From positions 1,085,374-1,149,373 of the forward strand of contig JAFLYY010000001.1 of NCBI GenBank assembly GCA_029785825.1: a stretch of 64,000 bases of DNA. Direction: 5' to 3'. The position numbers were made by a program, and so were the translations under genes. Positions 1 through 43,972 of the stretch are shown in pieces. Position 1 is the first letter of the stretch. Each line of letters opens with the position of its first letter. The notes below the pieces were generated by a model. That model was not told the origin of the DNA. It searched no databases and worked only from the letters and a program-made list of their open reading frames with translations. The stretch is from Nitrososphaerota archaeon (lineage in GTDB: Archaea > Thermoproteota > Nitrososphaeria > Nitrososphaerales > Gagatemarchaeaceae).

Positions 1-747
1 TCGACCCTCACGATGCCGCGGCTCGTCAAGATGGGAGTCATCTCCGAGGAAGCGGCAGGTTTCCTGGTCGGATGGCTCGAAGCCGGAGGGAACGTCACAA
101 TCGTGGGGGAGACAGGGACGGGAAAGACGACCCTCCTGAACGCGCTCGACGCGAAGGTCGGGCGGAGGCTCCGGCGCCTCTACATCGAAGACGCGGTGGA
201 GACTCGGGACATGCTGGCCGAGGGGTACCACCAGATGAAAGTCAAGGTCGACCCTTTCGAGCGCGGGGCCGGGGCTGGGAGGACAAAGGAGTCCGAGATA
301 GTCAAGGCCCTCCACAGGTCCCCCGACATCGTCATACTGAGCGAGATCCAGTCGGAAGAGCACAGCAGGGCGTTCTTCCAGGCGCTGGCGTCAGGGGCAA
401 GAGGGATCCAGACGTTCCACGCTTCCACCGTGGAACAGGCGGTCAGGAGGTGGGTCAACCTGCACCACATCGCGGAACAGAGCCTCCTCGACCTCGGCGT
501 CCTGGTGCAGATGGCTAGACCAGACAGGCTCAGGCAGGAGAGGTACGTCAAGCGCGTCTGCGCCGTCGCGCCCGAGGGCGAGACGCCCAGGATCGTGGAG
601 GTGTTCGCCAGAGACCGAGAGGACAGGCTGAGGCGCATGGCCGGACCTTCCTGGCCGGTCCTCCCTCAGGGGGTCGAAGGGGAGGCGCTCCGGGAGCGCG
701 TCGAGGCAGCGCTCCGGGACATCGGGTCCGAACCAAGGATGCCATGA
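1..747 (+). CDS. Type II/IV secretion (Tad/archaellum-like) ATPase, 5' truncated by window
   Basis: Hexameric secretion ATPase of the PilT/VirB11/TadA superfamily, which powers pilin assembly at the cytoplasmic face of the membrane. The reading frame is open from base 1, so the N-terminal domain lies outside the window; the first ATG is at 13. Visible are Walker A GETGTGKTT at about residues 31-39 from that ATG, an Asp/His-box-like region and the Walker B-like stretch DIVILSEIQ, followed by a conserved FHAST segment. The stop overlaps the next start by ATGA, so translation is probably coupled to the TadB/C-like genes. The class is secure; whether it builds a Tad/Epd-like pilus or another type IV filament is inferred from neighbours. 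Confidence 0.9.
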   Translation, partial: STLTMPRLVKMGVISEEAAGFLVGWLEAGGNVTIVGETGTGKTTLLNALDAKVGRRLRRLYIEDAVETRDMLAEGYHQMKVKVDPFERGAGAGRTKESEIVKALHRSPDIVILSEIQSEEHSRAFFQALASGARGIQTFHASTVEQAVRRWVNLHHIAEQSLLDLGVLVQMARPDRLRQERYVKRVCAVAPEGETPRIVEVFARDREDRLRRMAGPSWPVLPQGVEGEALRERVEAALRDIGSEPRMP

Positions 748-5418: not shown

Positions 5419-5808
5419 CTACCTAATCCACTTCAAAGTGACGCCGTCGATTCCCCGAAAATGTGGATCGTCTGTATAACAGGGAACATTGAGGATTCTG
5501 GCCGTGGAGGCCATTAGGCTGTCGGCAAAAGGGACGCCGTGTTTGTGCTTGATAAGAGCAGCCTGAGTCGCTACTTCTTTGTCGACGTCGACGAGCCTGA
5601 AATCCCTTGCTAGGGAATTTGCCCTAAGTTCGGCTACATCCCTGCCCTCCTTCTCCAAGGTCAGCTTGTATATCTCCGAAAGGGCCGCGGTTGAAAGGTA
5701 GTTGGGCTTCGAGCGCAGGAGAGCCCTCCTCACTTTCTCCCTTGTATCGGCCTCGTCGGCGTAGAAGAGCTCTATCAGGAATCTCGTATCGTAGGAGCTG
5801 CCTTTCAC
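5419..5808 (-). CDS. vapC: PIN-domain toxin, VapC-like
   Basis: A 129-residue PIN-fold ribonuclease, presumed to cleave RNA when released from its antitoxin. The N terminus has YDTRFLIELF with the first conserved Asp (residue 7), a middle acidic residue in ALSEIYKL, and FADSLMASTA providing the third acidic position; a Thr-Asp-Asp near the end completes the site. The ATG overlaps the antitoxin stop by ATGA, the classic VapBC arrangement with antitoxin first. Confidence 0.87.
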   Translation of the reverse strand: MKGSSYDTRFLIELFYADEADTREKVRRALLRSKPNYLSTAALSEIYKLTLEKEGRDVAELRANSLARDFRLVDVDKEVATQAALIKHKHGVPFADSLMASTARILNVPCYTDDPHFRGIDGVTLKWIR

Positions 5809-37477: not shown

Positions 37478-38467
37478 TTAGTTCGACAGAAGCCGCCAGG
37501 ACAGGACTATCCCAAGCGCCGAGAGGACCAGTGCGAAACCGGCGAGGACGCTGAAGTCGACCCAGAGAGGCGCCAGGACATGGTACCCCGCGGCGGCTGC
37601 CGAAGCGGACCCTGAGCCTAGCAGCATCTGTCTCACCCCGTCAACGGCGTAGCTCACGGGATTGTATTTCACCACGGACTGGAGCCAGGATGGCATTATG
37701 GCGACCGGGAGCATGGCGTTGCTGGCGAAGAGGAGAGGGAGGTTGAGGAGGTTGATTATGGCCATCTGAGTCTGCCAGTCGCTGGACCTGAGAGCGAGCA
37801 TGACGAAAAGCGAAGAGAGCCCGAAGGACATCAGGAACAGTATCACGAACGACCCTCCTATGGTGAGCACGCTGAAGTGTGAGGTGTCCATCTGGACCCC
37901 GCCCACGCTTCCCAGGACGACCGCGATGACGAGGACTATCGCCGCCTGGATGAGGGACCGCACCGTGCTCTGGGCGATCTTCGCGACCACGATGGCTCCC
38001 CGCCCGACCGGGGTGCTCAGCGCCTTGTTCATGAACCCGAATCTCCTGTCCCAGACCACTGACATACCTGAGAAAGCCGCAGTGAACAGGATGATGAAGG
38101 CCAGCATCCCGGCGGCGAGGTAAGAGAAGTAGCTGCTGGTGCCAAAGGTGCCGAGGTTGAGGGCGCTCGCTTCGGCCGGTGTCACCCCCGGGAGGCTCGT
38201 GAAGATCTTACCGATATTGAAGGCGAGGCCAAACAGGCCGAGCCAGACCACGGGCTGGACCAGGGATATGATCAGCTGGATGGGGTTCTTGTACCACTTC
38301 ACCAGGTCCCTGTTGGTAAGCGCCCACAGGCCGTGGAGGGGGCTCTTGTTGAGCTTGGGAGCCGCCCGGAACGACCTTTCCATCTCCCGTTCCTTCCGCT
38401 CCTCCTCTATCACCTGCTCTTGCGTCGTGACCGTGGACCTTGCCGGGACGTCCTCTGCCACCTTCAT
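37478..38467 (-). CDS. ABC-2 type permease, DrrB-like
   Basis: A 329-residue membrane subunit. A charged N-terminal 45 residues precede six hydrophobic segments. FGFMNKALSTPVGRGAIVVAK is the conserved cytoplasmic region and YNPVSYAVDGVRQMLLG lies before the last helix, both typical of daunorubicin-resistance-type permeases. It follows its ATPase by one base. Last gene of a PadR-ATPase-permease operon; substrate probably hydrophobic. Confidence 0.92.
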   Translation of the reverse strand: MKVAEDVPARSTVTTQEQVIEEERKEREMERSFRAAPKLNKSPLHGLWALTNRDLVKWYKNPIQLIISLVQPVVWLGLFGLAFNIGKIFTSLPGVTPAEASALNLGTFGTSSYFSYLAAGMLAFIILFTAAFSGMSVVWDRRFGFMNKALSTPVGRGAIVVAKIAQSTVRSLIQAAIVLVIAVVLGSVGGVQMDTSHFSVLTIGGSFVILFLMSFGLSSLFVMLALRSSDWQTQMAIINLLNLPLLFASNAMLPVAIMPSWLQSVVKYNPVSYAVDGVRQMLLGSGSASAAAAGYHVLAPLWVDFSVLAGFALVLSALGIVLSWRLLSN

Positions 38468-38468
38468 G

Positions 38469-39473
38469 TCACCTGCGGGCCCTCATCATGGTCACCCTCT
38501 GCTTGAACGCGTCCATCTTGCCGGCTTCCTCCTCCCTGATGCTGCGCCCGGTGAACTCCAGGTAGGCTTCGTCCAGGGTGGGCTTGGTGAGCGATATCTT
38601 GGTCACGTGCAGTCCCTTTGACCTGATCAGGTCGATGACCTTGATTGAGGACTCCTCGCCTGCCTCCGACTTTATCCTGTATTCATGGTCGGTCTTCTTG
38701 ACGTCCTTCACCAGCGGTATCTTCTTGATGTCGTCCGAGATGTCCGGGCCCGCCTCAGCCACCCCGACCACGATGACGTCTCCGCCGATGCTGGCCTTCA
38801 GCTCGTCCGGGGTCCCTATCTTTATGATGTGGCCATGGTCGACGATGGCTATCCTGTCGCAGAGGGAGTCGGCTTCCTCGAGATAGTGGGTGGTGAGGAA
38901 GAGCGTCATCCGGTAGTCTTCCTTGAGCATCCTGATGTACTTCCAGACTGCCGCCCTAGTCTGAACGTCGAGTCCCAGGGTCGGCTCGTCCAGGAAGAGG
39001 AGCTTCGGGTAGTTTATCAGACCGCTCGCAAGCTCGAGCCTCCGCCTCATCCCGCCGGAGTAGGTGCTCACCTTCCTGTCAGCCGCGTCCTCGAGCTCCA
39101 CGAGCCTGAGGAGTTCCATGGCGTGCGGCTTCGAGTTGCTCCTTGGTATCCCGTAGAGGTCCGCGCAGAGGATGATGTTCTGCAGCCCCGTCAGGTCTTC
39201 ATCCGCGGTGTACTCCTGGGGGACGACCCCCACCCTCCTCCTCACCTCGTTGGGATGCTTGTGGATGTCGAGGCCGTCCACGGTCGCAGTCCCCCCGGAC
39301 GCCCGGAGCAGAGTGGTGAGCATGCTGATTGTGGTGGTCTTGCCTGCGCCATTGGGTCCCAAGAACCCGAATATCTCCCCCTCGTATATCTCGAAAGAGA
39401 CGCCGTCGACCGCCTTCAGGCTCCCGAAGGACTTCGAGAGACCTTCTACCTTGACGATTGTCTGCTGGCTCAT
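38469..39473 (-). CDS. ABC transporter ATP-binding protein, DrrA-like
   Basis: A 334-residue ATPase with Walker A GPNGAGKTT, signature YSGGMRRRL, Walker B LLFLDEPTLGLD and switch His in FLTTHYLEEAD. The C-terminal extension after residue 230, with an ACT-like beta pattern and SLTKPTLDEAYLEFTGR, marks the DrrA group. The ATG overlaps the PadR stop (ATGA), so all three genes are co-translated. Confidence 0.95.
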   Translation of the reverse strand: MSQQTIVKVEGLSKSFGSLKAVDGVSFEIYEGEIFGFLGPNGAGKTTTISMLTTLLRASGGTATVDGLDIHKHPNEVRRRVGVVPQEYTADEDLTGLQNIILCADLYGIPRSNSKPHAMELLRLVELEDAADRKVSTYSGGMRRRLELASGLINYPKLLFLDEPTLGLDVQTRAAVWKYIRMLKEDYRMTLFLTTHYLEEADSLCDRIAIVDHGHIIKIGTPDELKASIGGDVIVVGVAEAGPDISDDIKKIPLVKDVKKTDHEYRIKSEAGEESSIKVIDLIRSKGLHVTKISLTKPTLDEAYLEFTGRSIREEEAGKMDAFKQRVTMMRARR

Positions 39474-39898
39474 AGGCTCTTCTCCAGCCTGGATACCCTC
39501 GTTGCGAGCTCCCTAATCTGTTTGGCGCTGGCGGCGAGCTTCTCGTCCTTCGACTGGGCGAGGTCTTCGAGATATGAAAGGTTGTTCGAGATCTCTCCGA
39601 GGGTCCCCTCCACGGATCTCGGCTCGATTCGGCTCGCCTTGGCGGGCCAGTCCGCCTCGGCCCTCCCCTGCGGAGTAATCTCATACTTGTTGTCCGTCTT
39701 GCGCTTCTTTACCAGCCCCTCCTCGGCCATCTGTTGGAGCATAGGGTACACCGAACCAGGCGAGGGCCTCCACCACCCCCTGCTCCCTGACTCCATGGCA
39801 TCCATGATCTCAGCACCGTTCATCGGCTGCTTGGTAACTATCATGAGGATCCACGTCCTGAGGCCCCTGTGGGCGCGTTTCGTCCAGTCCATCCACAT
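39470..39898 (-). CDS. PadR-family transcriptional regulator
   Basis: A 142-residue winged-helix repressor. The PadR core is recognisable: LRTWILMIVTKQPMNGAEI, WRPSPGSVYPMLQQMAEEGLV and NKYEITPQGRAE. A C-terminal helix for dimerisation follows. PadR proteins usually repress efflux operons and release DNA on binding the drug. It is first in the operon it probably controls, with two ATATCGGT repeats at its start. Confidence 0.92.
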   Translation of the reverse strand: MWMDWTKRAHRGLRTWILMIVTKQPMNGAEIMDAMESGSRGWWRPSPGSVYPMLQQMAEEGLVKKRKTDNKYEITPQGRAEADWPAKASRIEPRSVEGTLGEISNNLSYLEDLAQSKDEKLAASAKQIRELATRVSRLEKSL

Positions 39899-39984: not shown

Positions 39985-40386
39985 CTAGCCGCCCTTGACG
40001 ATGTAGTCCCCAGTCTCGGAGTCCCTAAGGTAGATGGCCCTCCACGGGCATGACTCGGCCGCCCGCTTCAGTCTCTCGAGCTCGACGAGGGTCTCATCTG
40101 CGTCCGCGATCCCCAGGGGCTCGCTTCCGATCTGCCTCCGTTCCAGGGAGAAGTGCTCAGGCGCCAGGACCGCGCAGAACCCCGTCCCGAGGCACAGGTC
40201 TTCGACGATGCCTGCCTTCACTTTCTTCCCCTCGATGGTCACTATCTCTATCTCTCCACGCTTCTGGAGGTTGGCCTTTCTGATGTCAGGGTTGCGCACT
40301 ACGGCGTCGGAGATGGACTCCCCGTGCCGCTTGGCGTTGAGGAGCATCTTGTACGCCTTCTCGGTAAGCTCCACGTTCTGGCTCAT
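39985..40386 (-). CDS. Ferredoxin-like protein with RHH/antitoxin-like N terminus
   Basis: A 133-residue fusion. Residues 4-31 (VELTEKAYKMLLNAKRHGES) follow the pattern of DUF217/VapB-type ribbon-helix-helix antitoxins. Residues 44-133 form a single-cluster ferredoxin: Cys65, Cys71 and Cys113-Pro in a CLGTGFC ... ESCPW arrangement, with the middle ligand replaced, so a [3Fe-4S] or three-Cys [4Fe-4S] cluster is expected. Such ferredoxins often feed P450s. A DNA-binding part joined to a redox cluster suggests a redox-sensing regulator; that is inference. Confidence 0.7.
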   Translation of the reverse strand: MSQNVELTEKAYKMLLNAKRHGESISDAVVRNPDIRKANLQKRGEIEIVTIEGKKVKAGIVEDLCLGTGFCAVLAPEHFSLERRQIGSEPLGIADADETLVELERLKRAAESCPWRAIYLRDSETGDYIVKGG

Positions 40387-40530
40387 ACCCTAAATCCGCG
40401 CGACCGGTATTTCTCTGCAATCCCTAATCCGGATGCATTCCCGCTGCACCCCCGGCGGCGGCCGAGGCGTTCCTGGCGAAGACGAACGGCGTTAGAGGCC
40501 CTTCATCTCGAAACTGGCGCCGTAGTCGGA

Positions 40531-41004
40531 CTACGCCTGACCAGCCTTCCCCCGGCAGCGTTGGCAGAACCTCTCGCTGCCCGTCATCCGCTGGACGTAG
40601 AAAGCATCCCCGTTTGCACAGATGAAGAGGGCCGCCCTGTCAGGGTCCTCGCTCTTGGCTCGCCTGTAGTTCTGCGTCCAGTACGCCTCCGTTAGGACCA
40701 GGTCGTCTCTCTCGCTTTTGATGCCCAGGTCCCACGCATAGCGCTTTGCCACCCTGACGTCCGCGTCCACTACCTCCTGGGTACCCTGGAGCGCTTTCTG
40801 CACGAACCCCTTGAGCTGACCGGCATCGGGTTCCCTCCCGTACCTTATCATCCGCGAAACATACCTACCGGGACAGACATGAACGCCGATCGTCCCTCCC
40901 TCGACGTACTCCATGGCTGCCTTGCCGCCACAGTGGGAGCACTTCGCCTCAGTGGCGAGCAGCGTCCGGGCCGTGTCCGCGGAGCTATTTTGCAGTGGCT
41001 CCAC
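40531..41004 (-). CDS. Uncharacterised zinc-ribbon-like protein
   Basis: A 157-residue protein with CSHC at 22-25, Cys44 in VHVCPG, and CQRC at 147-150. The cysteines at the two ends suggest that N and C termini meet around zinc. The middle is charged and helical. It begins at GTG 41004, overlapping the thioredoxin-like gene by 20 bp, so the two are co-expressed. Not recognised as a known family. Confidence 0.6.
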   Translation of the reverse strand: MEPLQNSSADTARTLLATEAKCSHCGGKAAMEYVEGGTIGVHVCPGRYVSRMIRYGREPDAGQLKGFVQKALQGTQEVVDADVRVAKRYAWDLGIKSERDDLVLTEAYWTQNYRRAKSEDPDRAALFICANGDAFYVQRMTGSERFCQRCRGKAGQA

Positions 41005-41347
41005 CCTGGAAGTAGGGGCTGTTCAGGAGGTTGGCTACGGCACGCCTCGTCAGTTCCACCCCTTCCGAGTAGCCGGTAAGGACGTGACGGATAGTCCCAT
41101 CCTGCATCTCAAGGAACACCTGAGGTATCAGATAGTCCTCCGACCAGTCTCCGTACTTCCGGACGAGGTCGTCTGCGATCTTCTCCTGGTCAGGATTGTC
41201 GATGTCGTAGTCGTGGAAGTCAAGCCCTAGCCTGTTCGCGGCATCCCTTGCAGGCTCGACTGTGGTTGGGTGGCAGTGCGGGCACCAGGTCGCATGCACG
41301 ACGTGGACTCCCTTGACCTGCTCCGCTCGGTCTTTCGATTCTTGCAT
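40985..41347 (-). CDS. Thioredoxin/glutaredoxin-fold protein
   Basis: About 120 residues with the redox motif WCPHC (residues 21-25) after a beta strand VHVVHAT, and IPQVFLEMQDG providing the cis-proline. The ATG at 41371 overlaps a TTTTAAAT box, so transcription should start near 41347, where a second ATG gives the more likely leaderless start. Partner of the overlapping zinc protein, perhaps reducing its cysteines. Confidence 0.85.
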   Translation of the reverse strand: MQESKDRAEQVKGVHVVHATWCPHCHPTTVEPARDAANRLGLDFHDYDIDNPDQEKIADDLVRKYGDWSEDYLIPQVFLEMQDGTIRHVLTGYSEGVELTRRAVANLLNSPYFQGGATAK

Positions 41348-41371
41348 GTCTCTGGCGGGCGCTGCGTTCAT

Positions 41372-42137: not shown

Positions 42138-42881
42138 TTGCGATTTCCCGATAGAACGATTAGGTCGGTGAATGATCTGACATCTTACCTTGAAAGCGAT
42201 AGCAGGACGTTCTCAGGGCCGGTCTGGTATCGAGGCCAGTCTGATCTCCAGTGGAATTTGAAACCATCAATCTATAGGCTGAAGAAGAGCATAAACGAGA
42301 TGGACCTTCTGAAACGCTTCAAACTCAACGCCACTATGCTCCTTGATGGCCTCCCAGACAGACCATACGAATGGCTTTTCGTTATGAGACATTATTCCGT
42401 CCCAACACGCCTCCTGGATTGGACGGAAAGTCCTCTAGTTGCAGCCTACTTCGCGGCGAGAAGACGAAGAAAGGCAGGGGCAATATGGGTCTTGTCTCCA
42501 ATAAGCCTGAATAAGCAGGAAGGTCGTTCGTTTACCAACATCGACACAAGCCTCCCTTCGTTCGGAGAAGACCCAGGAATCGTGAACCAATACGCACCTT
42601 CGAGTGAGTTTGAGACTCAACCGGGAGCACTCCCTCCCCTCGCAATTAGCGCCCCTCGAAACAATCAGCGCATGCAAGCTCAACTGGGCACCTACACTAT
42701 TCACCATCTTCGGAAGACACCTATTGAAAGAGTGGGGGACGCTACGCACGTATGGCGTTTTATAATTCCAGGATCGTACAAGAAGAAAATAATGAAAGAG
42801 CTTCGGACTCTTGGGATAACGCAATTCCAGATGTTCCCCGAGTTAGAGAGTATCGGAAGGGCGATAGCAGAAGAGGTCTAG
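42138..42881 (+). CDS. FRG-domain protein
   Basis: A 247-residue protein with the FRG signature WYRGQ at 30-34, then KPSIYR, and the second conserved block RHYSVPTRLLDWTESPLV near 84-101. FRG domains occur in bacterial and archaeal accessory genes; the activity is not established. TTG 42138 is about 30 nt after CTATAAAT. Two codons after the stop the DUF262 gene begins, so the two form an operon. Position in a low-G+C island suggests a defence role. Confidence 0.8.
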   Translation: MRFPDRTIRSVNDLTSYLESDSRTFSGPVWYRGQSDLQWNLKPSIYRLKKSINEMDLLKRFKLNATMLLDGLPDRPYEWLFVMRHYSVPTRLLDWTESPLVAAYFAARRRRKAGAIWVLSPISLNKQEGRSFTNIDTSLPSFGEDPGIVNQYAPSSEFETQPGALPPLAISAPRNNQRMQAQLGTYTIHHLRKTPIERVGDATHVWRFIIPGSYKKKIMKELRTLGITQFQMFPELESIGRAIAEEV

Positions 42882-42883
42882 AA

Positions 42884-43972
42884 TTGGCTCATCTGAAGAT
42901 ATACCCAATGGGAAACTCCGCCATCCTGACTATCAACTACCTACGTAATTCAATCGATGTCAGCCCACCATACCAACGAAATAGTGACATCTGGACCCGC
43001 GAGAAGAGACAGTTGCTGATTGACTCGATTTTGAACAATTTCGACGTCCCAAAGATATACTTCCACTTGCTCAGCAAGCCCCGCATCCTTGCCTCTGGCA
43101 AGGCGGCTTCATACGCCATAATTGATGGTAAACAGCGACTGGAGTCGATTTGGAAATTCCTTGATGGAGAATTTCCTCTAGCCAGTGACTTCAAGTTCAG
43201 GTCGAACCCCTCGCTCAAGGTCAAGGGGATGTCTTACGCCAAGATGTCCTTGAAGTACCCAGAACTGAAAGTCGCCTTTGACGGTTTCAATCTTCCTGTT
43301 TGGATAGTCGACACCGACGACGTCGAGCTCATAGAAGAGATGTTTTCAAGGCTTAACGAAGCAGTGCCTCTAAGCTCTGCTGAGAAGCGTAACGCCCTGG
43401 GGGGCGTCATGGTCAAAGCAATAAAGAAAGTCTCCACTCACAGGTTCTTTGAACGGAAAGTCAGGATTACCAACAGAAGATATCAACACTTGGAGGTTGC
43501 CATTAGGCTTCTCTTTCTCGAGTATACCATTCAGAGACGTAACAAGGTCATAGACACCAAGAAGTTATACCTCGACCAGTTTGTCAAGTCGTATAAGGGA
43601 AAAGTCAGGAGGCCGCGTTCAACTGATTTGGTGAGAGACGTGACGAAAATCTTGGATGTGATGCTTGACTACTTTACAACCAGAGATAGGCTCTTAAGAT
43701 CCCAGGCTGACGTTCCAATCTACTACCTCCTATTCAGGTACGCACTAAAACAGAAAAGGCTCGGGAAGCTCAGCAGGAAGGGCTTGCTCCGCTTCGAGAC
43801 ACTCGTAGCGGAGAACCGAGAGCTTGCAGAATCAGACATTACCAAGGCAGATTTCGACTTGCTGGAATTCGACCGAATGTCAATCCAAGGGACCAACGAT
43901 GCGAGCTCAATCAAGGAACGCCTGAGAATCATGGCTGAGTACTTCCGTCTCAAACGAATATACATCAAGTAG
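42884..43972 (+). CDS. DUF262 (ParB/Srx-like fold) protein
   Basis: About 362 residues. PPYQR at 28-32 and IDGKQRL near 80-86 are the two hallmark motifs of DUF262, a ParB-like NTP-binding or nuclease domain found in GmrSD-type modification-dependent restriction enzymes and many defence loci. No HNH (DUF1524) domain follows; the C-terminal half is helical and basic. TTG 42884, preceded by GAGGT, directly follows the FRG gene. The longer frame from 42752 overlaps FRG and is rejected. Confidence 0.82.
   Translation: MAHLKIYPMGNSAILTINYLRNSIDVSPPYQRNSDIWTREKRQLLIDSILNNFDVPKIYFHLLSKPRILASGKAASYAIIDGKQRLESIWKFLDGEFPLASDFKFRSNPSLKVKGMSYAKMSLKYPELKVAFDGFNLPVWIVDTDDVELIEEMFSRLNEAVPLSSAEKRNALGGVMVKAIKKVSTHRFFERKVRITNRRYQHLEVAIRLLFLEYTIQRRNKVIDTKKLYLDQFVKSYKGKVRRPRSTDLVRDVTKILDVMLDYFTTRDRLLRSQADVPIYYLLFRYALKQKRLGKLSRKGLLRFETLVAENRELAESDITKADFDLLEFDRMSIQGTNDASSIKERLRIMAEYFRLKRIYIK

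Follow-up and report, generated by a model that had tools for sequence, protein, structure and literature searches.

An archaeal VapB-type RHH segment fused to a three-cysteine ferredoxin

Sequence comparisons confirm that one gene in the window, by which we mean the whole 64,000-nucleotide stretch of archaeal DNA analyzed here, encodes a true fusion of a VapB-type RHH segment with a three-cysteine ferredoxin. We tentatively read the product, with a probability of about 0.43, as a dimeric [3Fe-4S]-type ferredoxin that carries an exapted antitoxin domain rather than as mainly a sequence-specific DNA switch.

RESULTS

Fusion gene in the window

The first-pass annotation of this gene (Table 1) had described an N terminus of about 30 residues of the DUF217/VapB type, a remainder consisting of a three-cysteine single-cluster ferredoxin, and no toxin gene alongside. 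All three points held up. The Pfam VAPB_antitox model matched every one of the 17 homologues, with reciprocal and profile-profile matches besides; the window protein matched Fer4_13 (residues 61 to 118, E = 2.6e-5) and Fer4_15 (residues 63 to 119, E = 8.6e-5) above the Pfam cut-offs, and its three cysteines are invariant in 17/17 homologues; and the fusion gene has no detected PIN neighbor within about 8 kb. Relative to its orthologue in genome G030, the window gene carries 32 differences, 22 of which fall at third codon positions, and this bias, together with a dN of 0.034 and a dS of 0.28, indicates that the gene is under selection. An imperfect direct repeat, CGGATT(T)AGGG, lies on either side of the TATA-like stretch (positions 40388 to 40398 and 40422 to 40431) and is also present in G013 and G030.

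Table 1. Features of the fusion gene and its neighbors in the window
Feature	Positions	Strand	Evidence
RHH-ferredoxin fusion gene, 133 aa, ATG start	39985..40386	-	ORF; Pfam; homologues; dN/dS
N-terminal VapB-like RHH segment and linker, aa 1-45	40252..40386	-	VAPB_antitox match, aa 4-31; relatives; profile-profile comparison; models
LQKRGE linker, aa 40-45	40252..40269	-	Alignment of 17 homologues
Single-cluster ferredoxin domain, about aa 57-122	40021..40218	-	Fer4_13/Fer4_15; PDB relatives
Cluster motif C65-x2-T68-x2-C71, second position without cysteine	40174..40194	-	Homologue alignment
Third cysteine, C113, in CP motif	40048..40050	-	Homologue alignment
Candidate weak TATA-like stretch GAGAAATACC, 20-29 bp 5' of fusion ATG	40406..40415	-	By eye
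PadR-family regulator, downstream of fusion	39470..39898	-	Pfam, E = 2.2e-16
ABC transporter ATPase, downstream	38469..39473	-	Pfam
ABC-2 permease, downstream	37478..38467	-	Pfam
Cys-rich protein, upstream	40531..41004	-	No Pfam match below E = 0.1, no NCBIfam match
Glutaredoxin/thioredoxin-like protein with WCPHC, upstream	40985..41371	-	Weak: Pfam E = 0.0089, NCBIfam E = 0.0028, both below cut-off

Homology of the N-terminal segment to VapB

The window protein's own VAPB_antitox match (E = 2.3e-4) scores 22.3 bits and does not reach the cut-off of 27.9 bits. We take this weak match as real because of the matches of its relatives, the reciprocal matches, and the profile-profile comparison. 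All 17 distinct fusion proteins match the model at E = 0.1 or better (best, 1.1e-8), and in a genome-wide search 7 of 18 intact copies scored over the cut-off and 11 below it, the window copy among the latter. Conversely, when 19 plain VapB loci were searched with the fusion profile, VapB ORFs scored 16.6 to 29.0 bits in 16 of them, and profile-profile comparison of fusion with VapB gave a probability of 98.4% over 33 columns. NCBIfam NF010249 was likewise matched by all 17 proteins (best, 2.1e-9), the window match lying far under the cut-off of that model. The homology covers one end of the antitoxin: the matches stop at position 29 to 38 of the 69 in the VAPB_antitox model, which is not matched at full length, and the portion beyond the RHH end is where we presume toxin binding to take place. 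The segment is followed by an LQ(K/R)RGE linker that is nearly invariant in the fusions (L40, R43, G44, and E45 in 17/17; LRRRGE in L075) and was not seen in the 11 VapBs compared.

Distribution of the fusion

As one of its checks, and as the main way in which its reading could be overturned, the first-pass annotation had named a search for the same fusion in other archaea. The fusion does recur. When 400 genomes of the order, drawn from a larger group, were searched with an eight-sequence profile, 315 gave some match, and 18 intact, full-length fusion genes above 150 bits (17 distinct proteins) were found in 16 genomes of four families. A nineteenth copy (L011/L088, G023:C99 at about 77482 to 77662) is degraded, its frame broken and its ferredoxin core missing. 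Most genomes with this ferredoxin family are without the RHH fusion. Since the genomes are mostly fragmented assemblies, absences are soft. A separate phylum-wide sample of 398 genomes gave matches in 65, with a full-length match at E = 1e-10 in the window's own genome only; these 65 include no carrier apart from that genome, so the other 15 were evidently not drawn, and the sample is a poor guide to carriers in the order.

The ferredoxin half and its family

Cys65, Cys71, and Cys113 are invariant in the 17 fusion proteins, and at the second position of the cluster motif 14 of them have Ala and the other 3 have Thr. All 17 thus present CXX(non-Cys)XXC...CP together with Fer4_13/15 homology, with Fer4 matches at E = 0.1 or better, and the PDB relatives of the C-terminal part of the window protein are single-cluster ferredoxins, including 4id8/4ov1. 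In PMC6237146, CXXA/GXXC(X)nCP is given as the usual [3Fe-4S] motif, the other variants examined there are reported to hold [3Fe-4S] clusters too, and a CXXTXXC ferredoxin is listed.

Other ferredoxins of this family in the order carry, in place of the RHH segment, a hydrophobic stretch or membrane anchor (recognized by eye or with a simple script that tests for a hydrophobic stretch) or a J domain (called by the HPD motif). The second cluster position is Ala, Ser, Val, or Asn in the anchored ferredoxins; of the 31 rows flagged J, 28 have Cys there, 2 have Phe, and 1 has Ser. Scores to the fusion profile are mostly 64 to 89 bits for the anchored ferredoxins versus 41 to 57 bits for the J types. 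On a ferredoxin tree of 67 rows and only 85 columns, for which the root was not inferred and the bootstrap had not settled, the 17 fusion rows form one clade (support, 100/100), as do the J rows as we grouped them by hand (99/97). In this hand placement, L016, which has an HPD motif, and all rows without a recognized anchor were counted as membrane anchored and L138 as J; rows lacking the full motif, including the degraded G023 copy, L025, and the plain VapBs, were omitted. L021, counted as membrane anchored, clusters with the J rows. The J-domain-type ferredoxin L016 (1492 to 1971, G041), whose motif reads CVGSVSC, was placed among the anchored ferredoxins, apart from DnaJ-Fer, which would reflect either a long branch or a J domain acquired independently.

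Toxin genes

PIN genes were not found in any of the 19 fusion loci, which span stretches of 4 to 16 kb (L078 and L085 lying close to contig ends). They were present in 15 of 19 plain VapB loci, a figure that is not independent since the PIN model was built from those very loci. Among the Pfam PIN matches listed, none lies within 13 kb of any fusion gene. The window genome has 8 PIN matches, and of the 4 listed the nearest, at window positions 5446 to 5790, is 34 kb away; the genome also holds a VapB-PIN pair (C1:782148-782704), 343 kb from the fusion. All 16 carrier genomes have a PIN match, over the cut-off in 15.

The RHH ribbon, core, and fold

We compared the RHH segment (window positions 3 to 31, 29 positions) between the 17 fusion sequences, gathered with their own profile, and 15 VapB sequences, gathered with the Pfam VapB model, which favors sequences like the model. 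The VapBs have Lys/Arg at position 3 (15/15), Thr/Asn at 4 (14/15), Ser/Thr/Ala at 6 (15/15), and Ser-Phe at 24-25 (15/15). The fusions retain the hydrophobic core positions 5, 7, 15, and 29 as well as E23 and R31. They do not keep the conserved DNA-facing ribbon of RHH regulators, and the S24-F25 turn is lost or variable too. Ranked by variability, positions 3, 6, 9, and 4 all fall within the top five of the 29, and the joint excess variability over VapB at 3, 4, and 6, which we take from RHH geometry to face DNA, is equaled by 16 of 3,654 triples, this triple having been picked post hoc. Even two fusions as close as L086 and L087 (114 of 138 residues shared) differ at the ribbon positions.

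The residue after R31 is mostly Leu, Met, Val, or Ile in the VapBs, and 14 of the 17 fusions have R-L; the 3 fusions of the window's clade have Asn-Pro after R31, giving R-N-P-D in helix B, which could weaken the RHH dimer itself. Two AlphaFold2 monomer models built from 12-row alignments are both poor (pLDDT, 58.9 and 60.2). These low-confidence models predict an extended N terminus followed by helices at 9 to 20, 25 to 31, and 33 to 40 in one and at 11 to 23 and 27 to 45 in the other, the arrangement that an RHH fold would require. When the second model was compared with PDB structures by Foldseek, ferredoxins ranked highest, but nothing reached E = 0.001. Among solved structures, the fusion profile gave nothing useful for the RHH segment, and with the VapB profile there were just four matches, all of them weak (E = 0.028 to 0.61), to SeqA (twice), HP0222, and AvtR.

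A palindrome upstream of some fusion genes

Words of the TGAGAA/TTCTCA type recur among the sequences 5' of 16 fusion genes to a degree that exceeds 200 of 200 first-order shuffles at each of three word lengths, with kinship ignored. The palindrome TTCTCA-N4-TGAGAA lies 40 to 56 bp 5' of the ATG in 7 of the 17 distinct fusion loci; it is exact in L079, L081, and L084 and has one mismatch in L070, L073, L082, and L083. An eighth locus, L078, has it with two mismatches. Upstream of L074, L072, L077, L071, L075, L080, L086, and L087, it is matched at best with four or five mismatches, and in the window's clade at best with five; the L085 upstream region is cut by a contig end. The exact palindrome is absent from the window genome.

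Exact palindromes occur in 119 of the 400 genomes, mostly one or two in each. Carriers of the fusion have 35 (G094), 20 (G067), 17 (G088), 11 (G075), 9 (G003), 6 (G125), 5 (G082), 3 (G103 and G051), 2 (G033), 1 (G032 and G132), or 0 (G000, G013, G030, and G052), and the non-carriers with the most are G036 (9), G143 (6), G162 (5), and G099 (4). Within the same four families, the mean is 7.1 in the 16 carriers versus 1.1 in the 42 other genomes (P = 0.001, kinship ignored). This association is not strict: sites and fusion dissociate across genomes. We had first assumed that the palindrome is the operator of the fusion protein; since sites are present without the fusion and the fusion without sites, we now doubt that the fusion reads it.

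Around 48 sites, located in 21 stretches, there are 64 site-gene pairs. In 21 of these pairs a TATA-like word begins 12 to 14 bp beyond the site, in 3 it lies elsewhere, and in 40 it was not found. The genes behind the sites include those for Usp, an amino-acid-kinase-family protein, ornithine/aspartate carbamoyltransferase, molybdenum hydroxylase subunits, molybdopterin oxidoreductase, flavodoxin, and TusA. Ten proteins were scanned and nine had a family; one of the nine, an arginine deiminase near the G125 fusion, had not been chosen by its site. At the L190 to L204 sites and upstream of L070, L073, L079, and L081 to L084, the palindrome seems to mark a redox/energy regulon in some genomes. 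Since it stands before the fusion gene as it does before redox/energy genes, the fusion gene itself appears to belong to such a regulon in some lineages.

An HTH family found near several fusion loci (HTH_20, 22.7 bits, below the cut-off of 27) was considered as a reader of the palindrome and fits only partly. Extra HTH_20-like copies accompany sites in G003, G036, G162, G094, G067, G075, G082, G099, G103, and G088. G051 (3 sites) and G033 (2 sites) disagree, each having a single member of a kind also present in site-free genomes, as do G032, with a site and no HTH_20-like member found, and G052, with three HTH_20-like matches and no site.

Gene neighborhoods

Relatives of the PadR, Cys-rich, and glutaredoxin-like neighbors in the window were found at G013 and G030 only among the 19 loci, and relatives of the ABC ATPase and ABC-2 permease at G013, G030, and L083. 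The Cys-rich and glutaredoxin-like WCPHC genes overlap each other, and both are 5' of, and codirectional with, the fusion gene. Farther away, on the plus strand, an FRG-domain gene (PADLOC PDC-S15; 42138 to 42881) overlaps a GmrSD/DUF262-type gene (PADLOC NsnA; 42752 to 43972), a possible defense pair.

In several other lineages, the fusion lies beside redox or energy genes. G051 has Fer4 and NrfD genes 5' of the fusion; G032 has ethylbenzene-dehydrogenase-like, Rieske, and cytochrome b genes 3' of it, along with genes labeled Usp-like and CBS-like by eye; and the loci of family f9 have hemerythrin, DUF302, and flavocytochrome-c-like reductase genes, with a thioredoxin-like gene called by eye. 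A cytochrome b match lies within 5 kb of 3 of 18 fusion loci versus 0.19 expected (P = 0.001, a test chosen post hoc), one of the three being interrupted by an internal stop. Nothing redox-like was noted by eye at other fusion loci, e.g., G033 and L087.

DISCUSSION

We narrowly prefer the dimeric-ferredoxin reading over that of a redox-gated DNA-binding regulator. The loss of ribbon conservation favors the former; the usual role of RHH domains and the palindrome in part of the family keep the latter close. An archaeal VapB antitoxin would have shed its toxin-binding tail and its RHH segment would have joined a three-cysteine ferredoxin widespread in the order, presumably in that direction. The RHH part would now mainly pair two ferredoxins as a homodimer, and the product would be a soluble, dimeric, probably [3Fe-4S]-type redox protein that may exchange electrons with, or report redox state to, partners in respiratory or low-oxygen energy metabolism. 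The homology of both halves, the single clade, the invariant cysteines, and the kept RHH core (positions 5, 7, 15, 23, 29, and 31) are consistent with such a carrier. It is also backed by the lack of PIN genes nearby, the alternative tethers of kin ferredoxins, and the redox/energy neighbors in several lineages. Several points stand against it. Other RHH families bind DNA, and the simplest reason for keeping such a segment would be that it still does so; the ribbon variability could reflect changing operators rather than lost binding. Both monomer models are poor, the R-N-P-D of the window's clade could weaken the very dimer that is proposed, and the window's own PadR and ABC exporter neighbors do not point to respiration.

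The protein may instead regulate transcription in response to redox state or iron: its RHH dimer would bind operators, with a DNA affinity that changes with the [3Fe-4S]/[4Fe-4S] state of the cluster in each subunit. We give this a real, if less than even, chance. The segment is clearly homologous to a DNA-binding antitoxin family, its tail replaced by a cluster domain, and CnfR combines a DNA-binding domain with ferredoxin-like cluster sites (PMC8510180). The palindrome found 5' of the fusion gene at 7 of 17 loci (8 if two mismatches are allowed) and the richness of carriers in exact sites (7.1 versus 1.1, P = 0.001, kinship ignored) also speak for regulation. However, the ribbon positions are unconserved, even between L086 and L087; many exact sites occur in G036, G143, and G162, where the fusion was not found; the carriers G000, G013, G030, and G052 have no exact sites; and the upstream regions of the window's clade differ from the palindrome by at least five mismatches. 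The compact DNA-binding redox switch of the first-pass annotation stays a proposal: the VapB ribbon and S24-F25 turn are lost or variable, and no operator was tied to the fusion, but the protein may still bind DNA. The bolder form of the idea, in which a disarmed antitoxin became a redox-gated regulator with a convertible [3Fe-4S]/[4Fe-4S] cluster per subunit and a fast-evolving operator preference, tuning respiratory or low-oxygen genes in these uncultured archaea, is one we consider doubtful. That the fusion is an orphan redox-sensitive antitoxin or decoy, acting in trans on VapC toxins encoded elsewhere, we consider improbable. The VapB homology, the PIN matches in 16/16 carriers (15 over the cut-off), and the VapB-PIN pair in the window genome would fit, but only the RHH end of VapB (to model position 29-38 of 69) is kept, the rest is swapped for a ferredoxin, and PIN genes were not found in the 19 fusion loci. 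Least probable is an ordinary ferredoxin whose meaningless N-terminal extension resembles VapB by chance. Taken alone, the window match is under the Pfam cut-off, and most genomes with this ferredoxin family are without the fusion; the idea is contradicted by the matches in 17/17 homologues, the reciprocal and profile-profile matches, and the residues of the segment that do not vary across four families.

Several known systems come close to the fusion. Its RHH segment is homologous to that of archaeal VapB (DUF217/COG1753/PF02697), an archaea-specific RHH-fold family often encoded with PIN toxins (Makarova et al., 2009, PMC2701414). Unlike VapB, the fusion is without a nearby PIN gene, the C-terminal tail, and the ribbon signature, and a ferredoxin has been added. 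The J-type ferredoxins of the order, which are the DnaJ-Fer described for Thaumarchaeota and green plants (PMC3564930), belong to the same ferredoxin family, are matched by the fusion profile, and are likewise tethered to another domain. They have a J domain where the fusion has RHH (the window protein has no J-domain Pfam match), fall in a separate clade, and mostly have Cys at the second cluster position, as opposed to Ala/Thr. Bacterial CXX?XXC [3Fe-4S] ferredoxins serving P450s share the three-cysteine motif with a non-Cys second position; those carriers go with P450 genes (PMC6237146), whereas no P450 was found among the six window proteins scanned. CnfR (PatB) of cyanobacteria likewise joins a DNA-binding domain to ferredoxin-like Fe-S sites (PMC8510180). 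It is set apart by a C-terminal Xre-type domain and two N-terminal 4Fe-4S sites, so its DNA-binding part is of a different kind. The anchored ferredoxins of the same order are the best-scoring other family members, with a hydrophobic stretch instead of RHH. In the literature searched, at the level of listings, neither an RHH regulator with its own ferredoxin domain nor such a fusion was found.

The fusion represents an antitoxin domain reused outside a toxin-antitoxin pair and coupled to a redox cofactor. Should DNA binding persist, the protein would be an RHH regulator equipped with a ferredoxin domain of its own; should it not, a DNA-binding fold would have been cut down to a dimer clamp for an electron carrier. 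With an RHH segment, a membrane anchor, and a J domain each found on one ferredoxin, the purpose of such tethering is testable within a single archaeal order.
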